Of a stretch of 36,382 nt of DNA, positions 13,683 through 33,390 are shown piece after piece (the first letter of the stretch is position 1; every line of letters starts with the position of its first letter). The DNA comes from Spirogloea muscicola. Lineage: Eukaryota; Streptophyta; Zygnematophyceae; Spirogloeales; Spirogloeaceae. Position numbers and translations under genes: made by a program. The stretch is from the NCBI GenBank assembly GCA_009602725.1, contig WELB01000020.1, forward strand, positions 589,844 through 626,225. The letters are read 5' to 3'. Below the pieces are notes generated by a model. The model saw nothing but the letters and a program-made list of their open reading frames with translations. It did no database searches and had not been told where the DNA came from.

Positions 13683-13862
13683 CTGTGAAAGAGAAAGTGG
13701 CTCTTACAAAGGGGGAGATAGGGCTATGAGAAGCCCAGAAAGGTTACAGAGAGCCTCCTTGCTGACGTCTTAGCAAGTAGTATCTCGCTTCTTGTGCCAT
13801 CCGGCCCTTTCAGGCCTTGTCCATTACTTTGGGCTGGCCTCTCACAGCCACTGCTGTCAATT
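13683..13862. mobile_element. Antisense tail (13683-13744) joined to a sense tail (13745-13862)
   Basis: The antisense part shows GAAAGTGGCTCTTAC and GGGCTATGAGAAGCCC. The sense part (GAGCCTCCTTGCTGACGTCT, then GCCATCCGGCCC, then GGGCTGGCCTCTCACAGCC) matches the 3' UTR after the coding copy at 35343-35756. Confidence 0.6.
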
Positions 13863-13963
13863 TGGAAGTGCTGTCTTCAGAGAGAATGGAAAGGTGGACA
13901 AAGACTGGACAGAGAGGCAAGAGATGAAATAGCACGTTGAGATTGACAGCAAATGGCCGTGAG

Positions 13964-14338
13964 AAGAAGTGGCTCTCCCAATGGGGGCAAGGGCTGTGAA
14001 AGGAAAGTGGCTCTTCCAGTGGGGGCAAGGGCTGTGAAAAGCGAGCCCGAAAAGATTTGACAAAGGGTCGAAGGGCCACAATGACGGAGGGGCCTGAAAA
14101 TGCTGTCAGAACGGGTGGAGGATGGACCACTCAGTAGCTACGAGTAAGGAGCATCAAATCCGACAGACTAGCCGCCGGAAAATTATCCCCCTGACGAAAG
14201 CCAGAGGCTGCAGAGAGAGCACGGCCGGCACGCAGATGCAAGGCGTGGGCCATGGACCGCTGGAGGGACTGACAAACGCATGCGATATACCTGGGCCCAC
14301 GAGCCAGCGGCGTTGAAGTCAGCCGGCTCACTTCGCCT
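13964..14338 (-). mobile_element. LINE copy inserted into the hairpin of an older tail (5-bp TSD)
   Basis: Minus strand: the coding end from the EPADFNAAGSWAQVYRMRL region to SLSDLMLLTRSY (stop near 14131), then a UTR and a duplicated family-A tail ending ...CCACTTCTT at 13964. It is flanked by GTGAG at 13959-13963 and 14339-14343. Outside these lie the two halves of another tail: GGCCGTGAG on the left, GAGAGGCCAGCCC on the right. It therefore landed in a hairpin loop. Confidence 0.8.
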
Positions 14339-14343
14339 GTGAG

Positions 14344-14393
14344 AGGCCAGCCCAACGGAAGCAAGCGCGGCGAGATTAACTGGTGGCTGGGAG
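14344..14393 (-). mobile_element. Halves of two older hairpin tails flanking the insertions
   Basis: 14344-14356 is the first half of the tail split by the insertion at 13964-14338. 14361-14393 (GCAAGCGCGG...CTGGGAG) is the 3'-terminal half of a tail whose other half resumes at 14830. The unsplit version of the latter is at 15255-15300. Confidence 0.65.
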
Positions 14394-14829
14394 AAGAAGT
14401 GGCTCTCCCAATGGGGGCAAGGGCTGTGAGAAGCCAGCACGAAAAGAATTGACAAGGTTGGAAGGGGCCAAACTACGAGCTAAGCAGCGACTGCGGGGCC
14501 TGAAGAGGCTATGGCAGAACGGGGGAGGATGGACCACTTAGTAGTTACGAGTGAGGAGCCTCACATCCGACAGACTAGCTGCCGGTAAACTATCCCCCTG
14601 ACGAAAGCCGGAGGCCGCAGCGAGAGCACGGCCAGCACGCAGATGCAAGGCGTGGGCCATGGACCGCTGGAGGGAGACGGACAAGCGCATACGATACACC
14701 TGAGCCCACGAGCCAGCGGCGTTGAAGTCAGTCGGCTCATCGCGCCTGCGGGACACAGCGAGCCGTGCAAGCCTGGCCAACAGGTCGAGCCAGTGGGATC
14801 CGAGAGCCCCATGCACGTCCACAGCCAGG
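14394..14829 (-). mobile_element. LINE copy inserted at the same hairpin position (5-bp TSD), family A
   Basis: Minus strand: LAVDVHGALGSHWLDLLARL, then FNAAGSWAQVYRMRLSVSLQ, then HALHLRAGRALAAASG and SLSDVRLLTRNY (stop 14538), then the family-A UTR and tail. It is flanked by GGGAG at 14389-14393 and 14830-14834. The outer sequences rejoin as one tail (CTGGGAG / AGGCCAGCCC) like the intact one at 15255-15300. An in-frame run of about 100 codons survives. Confidence 0.85.
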
Positions 14830-15150
14830 GGGAGAGGCCAGCCCAAAGGAATGGACAAGGTCTGTAAGGAGAAAGACCAGGAGAGGGCGGTGGCTGGGAG
14901 AGGCCAGCCCAGAGAAATGAATGAACAATTTTCGAAGGGGGCCAGGGAAAGAATGCAAGTGGCTCTCCCAATGGGGGCAAGGGCTGTGAGTTGCCACCCG
15001 GAAAGATTTGACGAGGTTCGAAGGGGCCAAACCACGGAGCTAGAAGCGCTATCTCAGTGTGGTGTAGGATGAATCACGCAGTAAGTCAATAAGAAAGGGG
15101 TCTGATAGGGTCGGATGGCGCAAAAGCAGGGTACTAGCCTCCAAGACGTC
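14830..15150 (-). mobile_element. Array of antisense LINE tails
   Basis: Begins with the split tail (14830-14875). Another follows at 14880-14950 (GAGAGGGCGGTGGCTGGGAG, GGCCAGCCCAG), then a family-A tail and UTR at about 14955-15150. The last UTR part (GGATGGCGCAAAAGCAGGG and GACGTCAGCAAG) matches that of 13745-13862. Confidence 0.65.
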
Positions 15151-15251: not shown

Positions 15252-15312
15252 AGCAAGCGCGGCCAGATGAACTGGTGGCTGGGAGAGGCCAGCCCAAAAG
15301 AATGGAAGCAGC
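15252..15312 (-). mobile_element. Intact reference hairpin tail with GCAAGCGCGG terminus
   Basis: Antisense GCAAGCGCGGCCAGATGAAC, TGGTGGCTGGGAG and AGGCCAGCCCAAAAGAATGG in one piece. It shows the unsplit target used by the insertion at 14394-14829. It also shows the 3' terminus seen in the 29-bp insertion at 35321. Confidence 0.7.
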
Positions 15313-16414
15313 AGTCCCAGTGAGGGAGTGAAGCTCGTCCAAAGGCGGCGGGGGCAGTGAATGGGTGCTGTGGCTGGGAGAGCCAGCTTGCCACAACGGC
15401 GGCTCCACGACAGGACACAGCTCGGCCAGCTGCCCGCGAGGCCGGCCCGGGGCAGCCGGGGCCCGGCCCGGGCGCGCCTGGCGGCCCTCCCCATGGATCG
15501 CCGTCAAAAGGGCGGCTGCCAGCGGGGCGGAGAGCCCACCCCCCGTTGACCCGGCCGGGGCCCCCTGGTCCGGGCGGCAGAACTGGGGCACCGCACGTGT
15601 GACACGGCCCGCACGTGACGTGGCCGGCAAGCCGACGGCCACCGCCCTTCCCGGAAATTTGCGGATGCAGAGTATCTGCGCAGGGGCGCGGGGAATCAGC
15701 GGTACCGTGACGGTCCCGGCAGGCGTGCTCGGCCACCACGTGGCGGCCGCCCACCGGGCGGAGCGGGCCGCGCGGGCGGCGGAGGCGCTGCCACGTCGGC
15801 GGTCGGGGGACGTCAGCCGGGTGCACGTGGCGGGCGCCGGGCGGGCCGCGGCCTCCCCGCCGGCGCCGCCGCCCAGGGGCCACCAATCCGCGCATTCCCG
15901 GATTCTCGGGGCGGCGGAGGGGGGGAGGATCTTCGCCCTGCCGGATGATCCGGCGGGGGCCGCGGCGCCGCTCGCGGATCGCCTCCGCGCCCGCCGCCGC
16001 CGGGCCCGTGCTTTTGTCGCGACGCCAAGCTTGTCGCGACTCGCAAGACGTACTCCCCCATCCCCCGTTTCCCGCCGTCGCGCCGCCACGCCCAGAACGG
16101 GCCCCCACCGCCCCCCTTCCCTCACCCGGCGGCGGCCGCCATAGCAGCGAGCTCGCCGCGCGAGCGCTGCCCTGCCGCTGGCCCGCGGCGGCCGAGCCAG
16201 GCTCAACGCCGCCGAGCTGCGGCCGCCTGCGCCGGAGCTCCCAGCTCCGCTCCGCGACAAAGGCCAACTGGCGGGCCTGACGGCCTCCGCGGCGTCGCGG
16301 CGCCGGCCGCGGATTGAACCCCCCCCCCGGGCCTAAGCCATGCGGCTCCGGTGAGATCGGGCCGCGACCGAGCACAGGGGAGCCGCTCGAATCGTCCCTG
16401 CGACATCAGCGGCG
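15313..16414. other. GC-rich region upstream of the oxidase gene, no gene recognised
   Basis: Very GC-rich from about 15400 to 16650. Long overlapping open frames exist on both strands, but they have low-complexity Ala/Arg/Gly/Pro composition and no recognisable domain, as expected by chance at this base composition. It may hold the promoter of the gene at 16415. A tail fragment (GTGGCTGGGAGAGCCAGC) lies at 15369-15388. Confidence 0.4.
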
Positions 16415-19400
16415 ATGGCCGGGCGGAGCCCACCAACGGAGGCCCAGCGCAGCTGCAGGCGCCGGCCGGCGGTGTCGCCCGCGGCGGTGGCGCTCGCCGT
16501 CGTGGCCGGCCTGCTCTGCGCCCGCAGCGCCGCCGCCGCAATCCCCCCCCGGCACGCGCCGGCTTGCGTCGGCGGACCAGACGGTGGGCATCCGCCTGGC
16601 CGGCGACCTCCGCCTTCAGCTAGCTGGCCTGGGCGGCCGCCAGCGCCACGGCACTGAGCTGGCGCGGCGACGGTTAGAGTCTACGTTTGACAATCTAAGT
16701 CTGTGGTTCCAATCTAAGTCACAGCTGACGCTGTGCCTGGCGCCCCTGCAGTGTGCGGGCAACACGACGTGGTCGTGCCGGACCTCGGCATCTCGCCCAT
16801 GCACTGCATTCTGACGCACACCAACGAGCTGCTCTTCATCGACCGCACTGACGTGGGCCCGACGCGCATCAACGACACCACCACTGGGAGCTACGCCTAC
16901 TCTGTCCTCCTCAACCTTGACACCCATGAACGCCGCGGCCTTGACGTGGGTGTCCCTGCTACCAGCTGCAGCTGCCCCTCTGCTCATTGCCCTCCTGCCT
17001 TCCTTCATCCCCATCACTCACACACCTCTCCTGTCTGCTCTGCCGCTCGATGCCCTCTCCCGCTGCCTCTTGGTCCTCCTTCCCATGCGGGCTAGTCCCT
17101 CCACCCTTTCTCTTTCCCCACTCTCCTTCCTCCAGCCAGCAAACCTCCAAGATGAGATTTTGTGTGGAGTGCCTTGCGCTCCTCCCCCTCTCTTTGCCCA
17201 CTGGCCTCCTCCTGGCTGAAGCGCTACTCTTTTGCCGCTGTGGCTGATGATTGTGAGCTGTTGTGGGCGCTGTGGTTCAGGTGATTACCAACACTTTCTG
17301 CTCGGCTGGCCACACGACACCAGAAGGGTATGTAGTCAACAATGGCGGCACATTCCTCGTCAACATATCTGGGAATCCGAATCTCGTGAATAGCTACGTA
17401 TCGGTGCGGAAGTTCTACCCCTGCGGCCCCGGTGGCAACTGCGACTGGGTTGTCAACCAGACAATGGGCTCCAATCGCTGGTACCCATCATCCATCCGCC
17501 TTGCATCGGGGAACATAATCTTCTTCGGTGGTGGCGCCCACAGCGTCGGCGGCGATGGAAAGAATTCACAGCCTAATCCCACATTTGAGGCAAGCTGCAC
17601 GATCAACCTTCCTTCTCTGCTACCATGGGTCCTCCTGCGCCATACCCTGCTACTTCTTTCCTGGGTTTCTGCTACCATCTTGCGGCCGTCTACCTCCCTC
17701 TTCCCCCCTCATGCTCCCTCTGCTTGCGCCACTGGCGCTCCACCTCCGTCCATGACCCTCTCCCCTCCTACGATGTCTGTCCTTCTTCCTGCCTTAGCCG
17801 CCGGCTGCCACTGACCCCACCTCTTCTTGAATGGCGGCCCAGTTTTTCGCAAACTCGGACAAACTGCAGTACCATGTGCCCATCCTCGACGACTCGCTGC
17901 CGTACAACCTGTACCCCTTCCTGCACGTGCTGACGAACCAGAACGTCTTTGTGCTCGCCGGCGCACTAGCATGCGAGATCAACTTCTACATCAATGGCTC
18001 CTGCGTCCGCAACTTCCCTCCCATCACCGCCCCTGACGGCATCAACGCCACGTCCCGCAACCACCCCTGGACCGGTGTGCCATCGCCGCTGCAATCTGCA
18101 TTGCAGCGATTACCACCATAGTGGTCCGCGAGAAGCCTGACCGAGGTTTGCACGTCGTTTGGGGGGGGTGGCATGCAGCTGGGACTGCCCTCCTCACGCT
18201 AGACCCGTATGCGGGATACAAGCAGATCATCATCGTGTGCGGTGGCGGCGAGAATCCGGTGCCTGCCAACCAGATCCCGGCTTCTCAGAGCTGTGGCTCC
18301 ATTGACGTTGACGCCCCCAACCCCAGCTGGACAATTGAGATCATGCCCGGCACCCGGTGTGCCCATTTTAACCTTCCCACTGGTCCTTCTCTCGGTTCAC
18401 AGCCAAACATTCTCCTCGCTTCCCCCTAAGCTTCATCTTGGCCATTGCAGCAAGTTCCCCAGCTGCCCTGCCGCCTGCCTTTTCTCTGCAAGAGTCGAGC
18501 ACCCTCTCTCAGCATCACCTGCCCCTTGACATCTTTTGACAGGATCATGAGCCCACTGGTGATGCTGCCGACGGGTGACATCGTGCTAATTCAAGGTGTA
18601 CGGAGCGGCCTGGCTGGTTACTACCTCTCCACGGACCCCAACTATCAAGGTGCCCTCATTTTCTTTGCTCATGATCTTTCCCATCTTAACCCCCTGCCTC
18701 TCTGAATCTTGCCAGTGTAGCACTGAAGTGCCCTACTCAATACTTAGTGACCTTCACCTTATCTAAAATCTGTAACTTATCAAACCGCCGTCTGTGGCAT
18801 GGGCTTTGGGGCCAGCGTACATGTATCGGCCGGATGTCGCCAATCCAAGCCCGTCGAACGAGACAGTGTCGCCACGCTTTGCGGTGCTGGGCAACTCCAC
18901 GATCCCTCGCGTCTATCACTCTTCGCTATCTATGACGCCGAGTGCCAAAATCTACCTCGCCGGCTCCAACTTCCGTGACACCTACACGCCGCTCAACTAC
19001 ACTGTGTTCCTCGGCACTGAGTTCCGTGTCGAGACATTCTCGCCTCCTTACTTCTTCACTGGGTGCGGATGGTTCCTCCCTGCCCCCCAGCCCCTTCTCC
19101 TTCCTTCCCCCCTCCCTCTTCACTGCTGCCTCTCTGTGGACTTCATTGTTTACCTCTCTCTGCCACAGTCTTGAGTGTGCACAGTGAAAGCTGGGTCTAC
19201 GCTGGAGTCATATTCCTAAAGGATAGGGTCTGATGGATCCACATGCCTTAATTACCCATTGACTCTCCTATATCGCATGACAAAGCTAGTCTCTGTACGT
19301 CCTTTCCATCTGCCACGCTTGCTTCCCCTACTCTCATACTTGGGTATAGCCTCCACTTTTACACCCTCCACACTGACGCCTGCTGGCCGCCACTGCTGTC

Positions 19401-22400
19401 TGCTGTCTCAGGCAGCCTCAGCCTCAGATTCTGAGCGCGCCGACGTCGCTCGCATATGGCCAGGCGTTTACTGTGCAGTTCAGCCTCGTCCAGGCGGGCG
19501 TCTCATATTCCAATATCAAGCTGGTGCTGCTTGATGCTGGTTTCAACACTCACTCCTTCATCATGGGCCAGCGCGCCGTACGCTGCGCCTACACTGTCAC
19601 ATCAGCGGTGAGCGCCAGTGAACCCTTGGCAAGCTGCCGCATCGACTTCCAATCCATCAAGCGAGACACACCGCTGCCTGCCTGCAATCCTCCCTCCTTC
19701 CCTCTCCTGTCCCGCAACAGCCCAGAGCTGATCCGTTGCAGCTGCTGGTGCTGTCATGCAGGTGGGAAGCCCGCAGGTGGTGACACTGTCAGCAATGGCG
19801 CCGCCCCATGTGGGCATTGCATCACCGGGCTACTACATGCTCTTTGCCGTCTCAAATGGCGTACCCTCAGTCGCGCCCTGGGTGCAGCTCGGCGGCTTTC
19901 CCACACCGCCGCCGCCACGCCCGCCTGCTCCTTCGCCACCACCGCCGCCACCGCGCCCGCCGCACCCACCACCACCACCGAGCCCACCACCCGGCACACC
20001 CGCCCTTTCACCACCGCCGCCTCCGCCACCGCGTCCTCCGCCCTCACCAAAGCCGCCTCCCCCCCCTCCAAACCCCCCGCCGCCGTCGCCGCCTGCCCCC
20101 GCTGGTGCCAACTTCCTAGTGCTTAACACCAATATTGGCATCGTTGGGACGTATGCTGTGCTCACCAAGGCCGGCACCATCCTTTACACTGACCGCACCG
20201 ACATTGCCGTCACGGGGGTCACAAATCCAGCTAATGCATCAGCGTACGCACATGCCGTGGAGCTAACTATCGCAAGTGGTGCTTCTCGCGCGCTGGCGGG
20301 ACCGGACCTCAATGACCTCGGGTGCCACGGCCACACCACACCCGATGGCACTGTCATAGTCGCAGGCGGCTACGCAAAGGTTGTCGGGCCTGAGTTCCGT
20401 GCTATTCGCCAATTCAAGCCATTGGCCGACTTTGGTGCAACGACATCAATGGCCGCATCGCGCTTCCGTGGCGCGGCGCATCGCCTGCCTGACGGCAACC
20501 TCGTCTTCCTTGGTGGCTCGAGCAACGGCAATGACGCTGATGACAGTAACCACCATCAGCCGACCTATGAGCGGATGATCAAGCCGCCAGGCCAGAGCCT
20601 GCTGTCACTGCCGCTTCTTGCCGGCACACTGCCCTACGACCTCTACCCAGTCCTTCACCTCCTTCCCACTGGCACCTTCTTCCTGTTCGCCAACACCCAG
20701 GTCATGGCACCCTCTCTCCATCTCCTCCCTACTTGACTGTGTCCCTCCCTACAACCCCTTCCACTCCTCCCTCGTACCAATGTTTTCACTCCCTTTTCGG
20801 ACCTGCCTTCCTCTACTGTCAGTCCTCTTACTTAGCCACCTCCTTCCATGACTGCCGCCTTCTCTGGCCACCGTTATTGGATGGGATGGAAGGCTTGCCA
20901 GCCCCTTTTATTCACTGCACAGTATTAGCCTTCTTAGCAGCTCACTGAAAGGCGTCTCAGTGCTTGCATGGACAGGCCTGCGAGGTGAATCTGACGGCTA
21001 GTGGCACGTGCCTGCGAACCTTCCCCAACCTCACAATTGGCGCTGGCGGGCCAGCAATGGCACGCAGCCACCCGTTCCCAGCCGCATCAGTGCTTCAGGT
21101 CCTCAGCCCAGCAGATGGCTATAAGTCGCGCATCACCTTCTGCGGTGGTGGCAGCCCTCCGACATCTAGCTGTGGTACAATCAGCCCGAGCGATGCCCAT
21201 CCAGCATATGCTTACGAGTCCATGCCGGGGGCCCGTACAATGAGTGCCGGCATCATTCTGCCCACCAGTGACATCCTGTTTGTCAACGGCGCCTCGAACG
21301 GCTCTGCCAGTGAGCAGCTCAGCTGCCCTCACCCCTTTCCTCGTCTGCACCACTTGGCATCTGACTTTTGCCGATGCATTCGGTTGCAGCATCCTTGAAC
21401 TGACTGGCCTGGTGGGGTCCACTCTGCAGCCAACAATGGTGCCCAAAACCCCGTCCTCACACCATACTTGCTGGACTCCACAAAGGCGGTCGGCGCTGCG
21501 GGCCGATTCGTGGTGCTCTCATCTGCGACGCAAGCCCGCATGTTCCAAGCCTCGGCGCTGCTCGACCCAAATGCTCGCGTCATCTTGGCTGGCGGCAATC
21601 CTGTTCAAGCACCCAATCAAGCCAAATATGTGGCACCACCAGCCAGCCTATCTGTGGAAGCTTTCATTCCGCCGTATTTACAGACAGGCCAGACTCAGCC
21701 GACCATCTCCAGCGCGCCGACCACGCTGGGCTATGGCCAGCTCTTCACCTTCACTCTCACGTCTTTCGCATTCGACGCCCCATCGCTGATTGTGGTCTTC
21801 ATCGACAGCGGCTTCAGCACGCATGGCCTCAACATGGGCCAGCGTGGAGTGCAAGGCCTCGTCTCCAGCGTGTCGGGCTCGACCGTCAGCGTCGTGGGGC
21901 CGCCCAATGCCTTCGTCGCCCCACCAGGGTACTACATGATGTTTGCCGTCCCCAAGTCGACGACCACCGGACTTCGTGTGCCTTCCAAAGCAGTCTGGGT
22001 GCAGGTCGGAGGTGTGCCAGCATATCCGCCGCCGCCTCCAGCGCCGCCACCACCTGCAAAGTCACCGCCACCGCGGGCGTCACCGCCGCCACCACCTGCA
22101 AAGTCGCCGCCACCGCGGGCGTCACCACCGCCACCACCTGCAAAGTCACCGCCACCTCGGGCGTCACCGCCGCCACCACCTGCCAAGTCACCGCCACCGC
22201 GGGCGTCACCGCCGCCACCACCTGCAAAGTCACCACCACCACCGGTGCCACCGCCGCCACCGCCCAGCCCCTGGACGACCATTGCAACACTAGGCATCAG
22301 CCCCCACCACGGCACTGCCACGCGGTTTGGTCGTTTGCTGCTGGTTGACCGCACAGACATTGCTGTCACCAAGCTTAATCAGACAGCAAACCCCAGCAAG

Positions 22401-28411: not shown

Positions 28412-28728
28412 GGCACACGGGCAACGATGGTCCCCTCGGGATGGTCCTGGTAGTGTCGCTCCTTCTTGCGTGCAGGCAGCGTGCAGGCAGAGCCCTCGCT
28501 GCTGCCTCTGGCTCTGGTCAGGGGACCCGCTTCCAGGAACCCAGTCTCTCTGACCTGAGGCTGCTTAGCAGGGGTTACTGACTGCTTCGTAGCTGCTTCG
28601 TTTCTTTTTAGTGCTTGTTGTTCTTCGTACTTCCCCTGGCCCCTTCTTGTCCTTTGTTCATTCTTTTCTGGGCTGGCTTTTTCCAGCCCCTATCCTCAAT
28701 GGGCGAGCCCTTCTTCCTGTAAAGGTCC
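28412..28728 (+). mobile_element. RLE-LINE copy, family B, with complete tail
   Basis: Plus strand: RQRAGRALAAASGSGQGTRF, then SLSDLRLLSRGY (stop near 28580), then a UTR and the hairpin GGGCTGGCTTTTTCCAGCCC, and AATGGGCGAGCCCTTCTTCC. The coding end matches the copy at 33753-34290 closely. Confidence 0.75.
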
Positions 28729-30629: not shown

Positions 30630-33390
30630 GCGCGCCCTGAGAGAAGAGGGGCTAGCAAAGCCAGCCCAGAAAAGAATGGACAATGTCCGCAGGCCTCAAA
30701 GGCTACAAAACGGTGCCCGGAAAGACAAAACTACACACCAATACTGATGCAGATGCTTACTCAGTAGCCACGAGTGAGCAACATCAAATCAGCATAACTC
30801 GAAGCACGAAAAGCGGCACTCCGCCGAGACCCTGAGGCAGCAGCCATGGCGCGGCCAGCGCGCGTGTGGACCGCGTGAGCCAATGAGCGCTGGAACGAAA
30901 TCGCGAGCCGCATACGAAATACCTGGGCGAAAGAGCCGGCAGCATTGAAGACTGGAAAACCCCGCCGCCGCTCGATGGCCTGCCGGGCAAGCCGCTGGAG
31001 GAGATCCAATTAGCCACTGCCAAAGGCCCTGTGAACGTCAATGGCCAGGGCCGCGAATACCGCCTGGAGAGTGGTCAGCGTACCTGCGCTCCTTACTCCG
31101 AGCCGCCAAAGCGACCGCGTGCCCGGCGAGCGTCGCTGACTTGGCGGGGTTGGCGAAGTCTACGCAATCTGCAGTCACCACATCCGCAATGATACGCGGA
31201 CCTCCTCCGGGCGGGATGGCGACAAGGTCAGCGCAGCGGGTGTGGAGCTGTCCGGCGGCGCCCCGCTGGATGGGCATGATTGTCGTGTATTCCACTGCCA
31301 CCTTGTAGCCGGCCTCCATGAACACACCCTGCATGCCGTCTCGCAGGAGGTCGTGTGAACCGGTCCGCTCGCCCCCGTGCGGGCAGCGGAGCATGTGGGC
31401 AGCCAGCGTCGCAGGGTCATCGTGGCGGGCACTGCACTCGCACAGTTGGACCCGGACGAGGCAGGGAGGGAGGAGGCCCAGGAGCCGGTGGACCGCCGTC
31501 CTGAAAACCTCGTCTGGTATTGTGAGCGCCACGTAGATTGGGAGCGCTGATAACCACGCCGCCGCTCCAGGGGAGGAGGCTGAGCGGATCCGGGCGCGCC
31601 CTCGAAGGTCGTGCGGCGGAAGGAGCTCCACCACCTGGTCATAGGCCGCTTTGTCCACCAGCGCGGTGTAGCGGGCCTGGGCCCGCAGGTCGGGGGTGGG
31701 CGCGAGGTGGACGAGTGGAACGACCTGCTGCGGCATATCGGGGTGGGCAGCCAGGAGCCCGTCGCGGGCAGCGCGGAGAGCAGCCTGGAAGGACAACTGG
31801 CCGCTCTCCACAGCTCCCACCCGCTCCAGGGCGCGGTTGCCGTGAACTTGGAAGCGCTGGCAGATGGGGGTGGCGACCTGGGCCCAGCTGCCCAGGTAGG
31901 CGGCCTCACAGGGGCGGGCAACTGGGCGGCAGCTCAAGCCGCCGCGGCTAACTGGCAGGGTAGCCTGGAGCAGCGCGGCTGGCGTGGTGAGGAAACCCGG
32001 GTGTTGGAGGAGAGTGGCCGAGCTCTCCAGAATGCCGGTGTCAGAAGTTGCGAACGCCACCTTCACCGTCGGGGAGGGGGTGAGGACGCGGGCCAGTAGT
32101 GCGGCCGCTGGGCAATGCACCTGGTCAGCATAGCGGTCGCCAGCTGCATGTCTTGCAGCGTGTGGAGACGGTCTGCCAGCCGGAGGTGCTCCAGCAGTCG
32201 CACCTGGAGCTGCTCCACCACAAAGGCTGGGGAGCCTATGGGGGCGCCGAGGAGGGTGAAGCCCCCGGCTGGTGTCTGGCAGCCCAACGGCAGGCGCAGG
32301 TGGGCTGGCAGGCCCCCAGGGGACCAAGCGCTGCATTTGGCTGCACGGATGCCCAGGCCGATCGTGCCCAGCTGCACTTCGAGGGTGGCGAAGGCTGCCA
32401 CGACATCGTCTGGCGGCCCCACCAGCGTGGCGTCATCCGCGTACGTGCGGACGAGGACGCCAGGGTGAGCCGCGACCGCTGCCAGCAGCGCAAGGTTGTG
32501 AGCCAGCGCGTAGTAGAGCCCCGCCAGCGGATCCCCTTGGCGCGCGCTTGTGGAGGAATGGAGAACCTCCACCCCACCGCGCCCTGTCCGCCACAGCAAG
32601 TCGCTTGGCTGACCGTAGCCCAGCCTGAAGAAGGGTAGGAGGCTGGCGAAGGCCGCCCGCAGCTCCTCTGCGATGACATCCGGGTATGCGCTGTTAAGAG
32701 CATTCCGGACACCTACCGCTAAAGCCATCCAACCGGGATTCAGGTCCAAGGCGGCCCGTACGCCGTGCACGACCACCTCACCGCCGCTCCGCAGCCCCGC
32801 ACGGAACTGGTGGGGCGCCAGGTGTGGCTGGGCAAGCCCCGCGTGCTGTTGCCATAGCGCGCGCCCCACCAGGAGGTAGAGCACTTCGCCAACGGCAATG
32901 GGCCTGACCCCCCATTGGCCTTGCTGAGGGCCAGCAGCGTGCTGGTGCAAATGACGCCGCGTATGCTGGCCGGGACCTGGTCGCGAGTAAGGAGTTGGCA
33001 CACTTGGTGGAGTGCCTGGGAGTCACTTGGTTCTCCCTCCAGGAAGAGCTTCGCGGAGATGCTCGGTGAGCATGTGTGAAGGACCTCCTGCGGCTGCGCG
33101 ACGGCTGCTCTGCAGAGCCTGCCGAAGAGCGGCGGCGTCGAGGGCCACCTCCTCCGGCGGTGCGAAGGTGGCCAAGCCACGGAGGCAGGGGGGAGGCGGG
33201 CCGCAGGGTGCAGGGACTCCAGGGCCGCCCGTGTGGCGGCGTTGGTTGGCGCCAGCGCCGAGTCGTCCAGGGCCTGGACCTCCCACGGGTCCGACTCGCC
33301 CGCGTGAGCGGAGCGCAGAGCCCGGCGGACGTTGGCGGCCCCGTCTGGCGCTGTCTGCACGTCACCTCGGCTTGCTGCCAACGGGCGGTG
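30630..33390 (-). pseudogene. Longest RLE-LINE copy: reverse transcriptase plus restriction-like endonuclease, frameshifted
   Basis: Encoded a non-LTR retrotransposon polyprotein that makes DNA from its own RNA at a nicked target. In minus-strand order: ALHQVCQLLTRDQVPASIRG; RPIAVGEVLYLLVGRAL; SARQGDPLAGLYYALA (motif B, 32526-32543); RTYADDATLVG (catalytic YADD, 32432-32443); the thumb LLGAPIGSPAFV; the zinc motif CECSARHDDPATLAAHMLRC (31435 region); GERTGSHDLLRD; RCADLVAIPPGGGPRIIADV (endonuclease PD-x-D-like core, 31180-31240); then the conserved C-terminal domain to SYADLMLLTRGY (stop 30761) and a hairpin tail (about 30640-30690). Frameshifts near 32910 (in a six-C run), 32096 and 31050 break it. 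The 5' end is truncated near 33390. The N-terminal part is absent, so clade assignment is open. Confidence 0.88.

Follow-up and report, generated by a model that had tools for sequence, protein, structure and literature searches.

A strand-specific insertion hot spot for a putative RLE-type LINE in the tail hairpins of sibling elements of Spirogloea muscicola

In the stretch of Spirogloea muscicola DNA analyzed here (36,382 nucleotides, hereafter the window), two truncated LINE copies lie next to each other on the minus strand, each between the two halves of an interrupted LINE tail. The question raised by this locus is whether such an element chooses its target by recognizing a particular point in older tails. 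The original prediction was that it does: an element with a restriction-like endonuclease (RLE) would target its own tail in a sequence-specific manner and so generate nested clusters. The features concerned, with the copies assigned to a LINE family designated A, are as follows.

13964 to 14338, minus strand: copy 1 of the family A LINE, 5'-truncated, 375 bp, with its 3' end at 13964 and paired target halves
13959 to 13963, minus strand: target duplication on the 3' side of copy 1 (CTCAC on the minus strand, GTGAG on the plus strand)
14339 to 14343, minus strand: target duplication on the 5' side of copy 1 (GTGAG on the plus strand)
14344 to 14357, minus strand: 5' half of the first target hairpin (CGTTGGGCTGGCCT)
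13929 to 13958, minus strand: 3' half of the first target tail (GGCCATTTGCTGTCAATCTC...), which by eye resembles an intact plus-strand tail at about 13830-13870
14394 to 14829, minus strand: copy 2 of the family A LINE, 5'-truncated, 436 bp, with its 3' end at 14394
14389 to 14393, minus strand: target duplication on the 3' side of copy 2 (CTCCC on the minus strand, GGGAG on the plus strand)
14830 to 14834, minus strand: target duplication on the 5' side of copy 2 (GGGAG on the plus strand)
14835 to 14859, minus strand: 5' half of the second target tail (CTTGTCCATTCCTTTGGGCTGGCCT)
14358 to 14388, minus strand: 3' half of the second target tail (AGCCACCAGTTAATCTCGCCGCGCTTGCTTC), belonging to sibling family X1
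15277 to 15295, minus strand: unsplit X1 tail hairpin GGGCTGGCCTCTCCCAGCC (GGCTGGGAGAGGCCAGCCC on the plus strand)
31038 to 33022, minus strand: related LINE pieces with a weak reverse transcriptase (RT) match, a C-x-C...H...C motif and an RLE-like motif, in two overlapping frames

On rereading, the coordinates first given for the two copies and their duplications proved exact to the base, and the unsplit relative of the target is indeed present within the window. Read on the minus strand, both copies terminate in CCACTTCTT directly before CTC. Rejoining the flanks yields GGGCTGGCC-TCTCAC-GGCCATTTGC for copy 1 and GGGCTGGCC-TCTCCC-AGCCACCAGTTAATC for copy 2, and thus both have split a hairpin at GGGCTGGCC^TCTCNC. 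Because the element end shares one T with the target, the duplications can be read as either 5 or 6 bp. The extent of copy 2, about 440 nt, is common to other family A copies. The X1 tail split by copy 2 itself stops some 4 nt short of GGGCTGG in the hairpin hit by copy 1 (window 14344-14388), probably because that tail had already received an earlier insertion, the third at this locus.

The 3' end of family A is TTGGGAGAGCCACTTCTT, for which there are 6,216 matches in the genome at up to two mismatches, compared with a single match for the reversed pattern. Its true terminus is a short, variable (CTT)n tail, and in 84 of the 94 junctions sampled a C follows CTTCTT. Given such an end, the junction can be placed inside TTCTC only to within 1-3 nt, and the apparent CTC boundary belongs in part to the element itself. 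Family A copies show 5' truncation and variable target duplications, both of which are LINE traits. The family A protein is seen only in its 3' part, where the copies keep a C-terminal region that matches sibling LINEs, including RVDLVAS...IIADVV; an RT is assigned to family A only through the homology of this part to the siblings. Over 4.3 kb, five of the siblings (L137-L141) share 99.7-99.95% identity; their open frames span 1,386-1,418 codons from stop to stop, and they have been active recently. Three others (L142-L144) are 99.8-99.9% identical over 2.7-2.9 kb. The RT is recognized by Pfam PF00078 in full-length L141 (E 2.4e-13) and in L142 (2e-11); in the window, the match within 32063-33022 is weak and under the Pfam cut-off, and the C-x-C...H...C and RLE-like motifs lie in 31038-32432. 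Two CCHH-like N-terminal motifs, found by regular expression and known from the sibling only, precede the RT in L141. It is followed by C-x-C...H...C and then RRADLV...IITDVV, which would correspond to a zinc knuckle and a restriction-like endonuclease of the PD-(D/E)XK type. Searches of Pfam and PDB gave no match for the RLE-like region, and its predicted structure has a pLDDT of 42.7, too low to judge the fold. Motif and homology suggest, for family A, an endonuclease of the RLE type. In four loci (L116, L139, L046 and L048), hairpins of the CCTCTC type follow at 68 nt from the end of a LINE ORF. Two of the four, L046 and L048, represent the X1 tail (AGCCACCAGTTAATCTGG...), and consequently X1 is a LINE tail. 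None of the eight siblings L137-L144, which are of other families, lies in a tail loop, as judged from their printed 3' flanks, and this counts against the model proposed below.

A genome-wide search indicates that the split point seen in the window recurs. The pattern GCCACTTCTTN{0,30}CTCNCAGCC, in which the family A end lies at most 30 bp before CTCNCAGCC, is found in 253 places in the sense orientation; the reversed control is found in none, and the antisense hairpin follows the A end in only one. Among the 100 matches listed (of 253), the A end abuts CTCNCAGCC directly (offset 0) in 53. With 31 possible offsets, this corresponds to a binomial p of about 1e-51; among the 53 are some own-tail junctions, which may be stutter. 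Forty-one of these 53 places form our second set of junctions, two were already in the first set (described below), one is copy 2 of the window, and nine were left out. Junctions directly before CTTTGGGCTGG also recur, with 4 among the same 100 matches listed (of 253). In hairpins of a second type, which belong to siblings with a TTT loop, the junction falls between GCCACTTCTT and CTTTGCCAGCC, one exact point in the loop, in 12 of 39 places; with 2,226 such hairpins intact, loop insertion is about 265-fold over background. A different tail that ends in CTTCTT, GAGCCCTTCTT, meets the hot-spot site at offset 0 in 5 of 12 places.

The size of the effect can be estimated. There are 6,414 intact CCTCTC-type hairpins in the genome, of which uniform random insertion predicts that 0.13 would be filled. 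After subtraction of A-type or own-tail junctions, and scaled from the matches listed, the number filled is estimated at 87-102, that is, a per-site insertion rate of about 660-770 times background, given the scaled count and an assumed background of uniform insertion. These observations establish a real, recurrent and strand-specific insertion hot spot in sibling LINE tails. It has been considered that LINE-rich regions simply tolerate insertions, so that tails are struck in proportion to their amount, and many of the sampled insertions do lie in LINE tails at other points. However, the 53 junctions at offset 0 among the 100 matches listed and the orientation bias of 253 to 1 reject such tolerance as the sole cause, and we regard it as very improbable.

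It might also be argued that an element entered a tail only once and that the resulting composite was then multiplied, in which case the shared junction would reflect descent. The shared junction letters, taken alone, would fit this idea. To judge independence, 58 loop records were examined (15 sampled, 41 at offset 0 and the 2 of the window). Some upstream hairpin half was flagged automatically in 43 of the 58; in many of these it is an intact tail, either the element's own or another one. From the flagged records, 17 loci were chosen by eye in which a copy is framed by 5' and 3' hairpin halves and the duplications match over 5-16 nt. The sample contributes 6 of the 17, the offset-0 set 9 and the window 2; the plausible L101, L113 and L120 were excluded. 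The insert lengths in these 17 loci take 17 different values, the flanks outside the tail are unrelated (ungapped identity at most 0.42), and the variable loop base matches between the two halves of each target (CAC, CCC, CCCGG). Such variation in length, loop base and outer flank, together with the presence of several target tail families, contradicts descent from one composite for these 17 loci and leaves it with next to no probability. Of the 79 sampled junctions outside loops, one has an upstream half, which is incomplete. In four of the 17 paired loci (L028b, L048+, L066 and L068), the duplication begins two bases further in. Thus, the consistent split point that had been proposed from two copies is found genome-wide, the same within about 2 nt across 17 independent paired insertions, and the insertions are strand-specific, which gives the nested head-to-tail clusters that had been anticipated. 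In L120, the sequence after the 5' hairpin half resembles family A in reverse orientation, possibly a 5' inversion.

The proposal that the element targets its own tail has proved mostly wrong. By eye, the 41 offset-0 junctions comprise 29 in tails of sibling families, 9 in A-type tails (a class that includes L089 and L105 at 751) and 3 that are unclassified (L095, L101 and L109); an automatic 80% cut gives 33 other and 8 own, and is crude where 11 letters were compared. Furthermore, some apparent own-tail insertions may arise in another way. If the new cDNA re-annealed at the CTTCT of the loop to the CTTCTT end, the tail end would be copied twice, and this stutter would mimic an insertion into the element's own tail. 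In three single insertions with a doubled 3' tail, this is probably what the reverse transcriptase has done.

L053, C5:586079-586888
L057, C5:675053-675897
L072, C5:1308690-1309540

In L057 and L072, one pair of duplications encloses both tail copies (CATCGTCT and CTTTCCG, respectively), and in L053, TATGATCACA is found on both outer sides of the doubled tail, with about 20 extra nt at the 5' end. L061 looks similar, with N on its 5' side, and is probably a doubled tail too. As an account of the hot spot, however, stutter has a slim chance. It provides no way to yield a 5' hairpin half on the far side or the tail of a sibling family, and it can cover only the A-type junctions (9 of 41 at offset 0 by eye). 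In addition, L068 is a paired locus with a 5' hairpin half on the far side and is a true insertion in an A-like tail. Consequently, self-targeting stands in the sense that an A-like tail can be hit, but the targets are mostly the tails of sibling families.

How strict this choice is was judged from a first set of 94 junctions, drawn from the 100 matches listed (of 6,216) as exact matches in contig order C1-C6, with the last six (C6) omitted. By eye, 15 of the 94 lie in tail loops and the remaining 79 elsewhere. Ten were judged to be genuine tail-loop insertions (L003, L021, L028b, L043, L046, two in L048, L064, L066 and L068), with L003, L043 and L064 counted from the 3' junction alone; L053, L057, L072, L061 and L075 were taken off the 15, and the status of L075 is undecided. 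Strict site specificity is thus not supported, and since 84 of the 94 sampled junctions were not judged genuine, recognition is loose. Of the sequence-specific targeting originally envisaged, the shared split point and its strand specificity remain, and the strictness does not: insertion into tail loops is a preference, and most sampled copies have landed elsewhere. In eight more of the sample, the insertion precedes a sense tail hairpin by 4-39 nt, in one it comes just after such a hairpin, and in three it is within an antisense A tail (for this count, positions for tail B were adjusted by hand and L042 was dropped). Given that the tails are CT-rich and that insertions occur upstream of and after the hairpins, part of the effect is a general liking for tails.

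Local sequence accounts for some of the preference. Among 20 sampled copies taken as lying outside the hot spot, with clear duplications of 6-9 nt, C precedes the cut in 16 and C or T follows it in all 20. A motif built from 19 of these sites, leaving out L021 with its degenerate hairpin, scores the CCTCTC hairpin about 13 times above background, the TTT hairpin about 3 times, and the TT-loop hairpin of A itself 1.4-2.1 times; the motif is weak because the element's pyrimidine tail introduces a bias at the left edge of the duplication. A 13-fold preference as the full explanation was rejected against the estimated 660-770-fold rate. A single hexamer was likewise rejected. GCCACTTCTTCTCMC occurs in 163 places, and in the 70 on contigs up to C53 that were compared with the hairpin list, AGCC follows in 49 (35 of 47 after CTCAC and 14 of 23 after CTCCC). 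In the genome, AGCC follows about 12% of 58,754 TCTCAC sites, an estimate in which the CAC share comes from 71 among the 100 matches listed, and the odds ratio for AGCC after CTCAC, insertions versus genome, is about 21. The 13-fold motif and the 660-770-fold rate cannot by themselves separate recognition of an extended sequence from recognition of a hairpin.

Taken together, these results have led to a model, to which we assign a probability of roughly 60%, in which family A would enter its targets through target-primed reverse transcription. C^YTY-like sites would be favored weakly and in general, and the 3' tails of sibling families strongly and in a strand-specific manner. In this model, family A is pictured as a LINE that is subject to 5' truncation, ends in a (CTT)n tail and carries an RLE-like domain at the C terminus of its protein. 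The element protein would recognize the tail DNA, chiefly the GGGCTGGC arm and then the pyrimidine loop, and would nick the hairpin loop between GGGCTGGCC and TCTC. The exposed ...GGGAGA 3' end could then pair with the (CUU)n terminus of the element's RNA and act as primer there. The hot spot is best read, then, as sequence-led target choice combined with tail microhomology in target-primed reverse transcription.

Alternatively, the DNA hairpin itself, as a cruciform or a single-stranded-DNA hairpin, might be recognized and its loop nicked by the endonuclease in a structure-dependent manner. Loops are cut in both CCTCTC- and TTT-type hairpins, which share the stem and differ in loop sequence, and the enrichment exceeds that expected from either the hexamer or the local motif. 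On the other hand, the antisense hairpin is found at 1 place versus 253 for the sense, although loop sequence could account for this difference, and the 3' arm is imperfect in some of the paired targets (CCCGGCC in L048+, CCCAGCTACC in L028b and CTCACGGCC in the window). Moreover, where A copies lie antisense in A tails (17 places), 5 of the 17 are at offset 0, exactly at TCT^CCCAATGGGGG, which is outside that loop. Recognition of the DNA hairpin is regarded as unlikely, if less so than stutter.

Five tails were folded as RNA and compared with shuffles. The L141 tail (z -3.8) and window 28600-28716 (z -2.6) form the hairpin inside an outer stem, and the X1 tail at 15258-15330 forms the hairpin with z -1.7. 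Window 13800-13880 folds well (z -2.7) into a structure different from this hairpin, and for the tail of a family A copy, shuffled sequences fold equally well (z -0.2). Thus, a shared RNA structure in sibling tails is suggested by these predictions. A more speculative idea, which we consider doubtful, is that the RT/endonuclease reads the same stem-loop twice, as RNA to select the template and as DNA in older tails to select the target. If so, each new copy would be an extra landing pad for the whole superfamily, and head-to-tail nested arrays would be built in safe ground.

Nested LINEs have been described in other green algae. Zepp of Coccomyxa subellipsoidea and ZeppL of Chlamydomonas are, in the sections of the reports drawn on here, L1-type LINEs that form nested clusters by targeting existing copies; the clusters consist mostly of 5'-truncated 3' ends, Zepp has one cluster per chromosome, and nested LINEs in green algae have been linked to centromeres (PMC8226300, PMC3446292). 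Like these elements, family A nests in existing copies (17 paired loci), yet mostly in tails of sibling families. Unlike the L1-type Zepp, it carries a domain of RLE-like character, is scattered over the genome with 6,216 matches to its tail, and uses a defined point in a hairpin. When an APE endonuclease, as in Zepp and ZeppL, was sought in sibling ORFs (1393 aa and 1130 aa), Pfam at E up to 1 returned only RVT_1. Family A copies are present on each of contigs C1-C6 and on many others, in an assembly that stops short of chromosomes. Alu and L1 also insert in the A-rich tails of older copies, where the tail recreates the favored target and nested or tandem copies result. Family A resembles them in that its tail recreates a favored target, and differs from these poly-A, APE-type systems in using a hairpin loop, mostly in the tails of other families.

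Among RLE elements, Utopia has, in the part of PMC4640811 used here, a layout with which the full-length siblings agree in the order of two N-terminal CCHH-like motifs, RT, C-x-C...H...C and RLE-like motif. That part gives the targets of the RLE clades (R2, R4, NeSL with Utopia, CRE and HERO) as RNA genes, microsatellites and other repeats including transposons, and notes many non-specific elements in the HERO clade; unlike these descriptions, in which a tail hairpin is absent, the family A target is such a hairpin (PMC4640811). A literature search, itself partial and so no proof of absence, found no report of an RLE element aimed at its own tail or at that of a sibling. Self-targeting nested LINEs are already known from Zepp, and what differs here is an RLE-like type, as judged by motif, a defined hairpin point and the use of mostly sibling tails. 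Self-directed nesting is one route by which a LINE may multiply without breaking genes. The S. muscicola system raises the question of whether a protein that reads the RNA tail also reads the same tail as DNA, and this question can be tested directly, since the element is dispersed in thousands of copies and offers a defined target point, a clear orientation rule and intact full-length relatives. Elsewhere in the window, 17257-20736 holds two pieces of glyoxal-oxidase-like genes (PF07250), of which one includes a proline-rich stretch, and frames that by appearance resemble them run on to about 24.3 kb.
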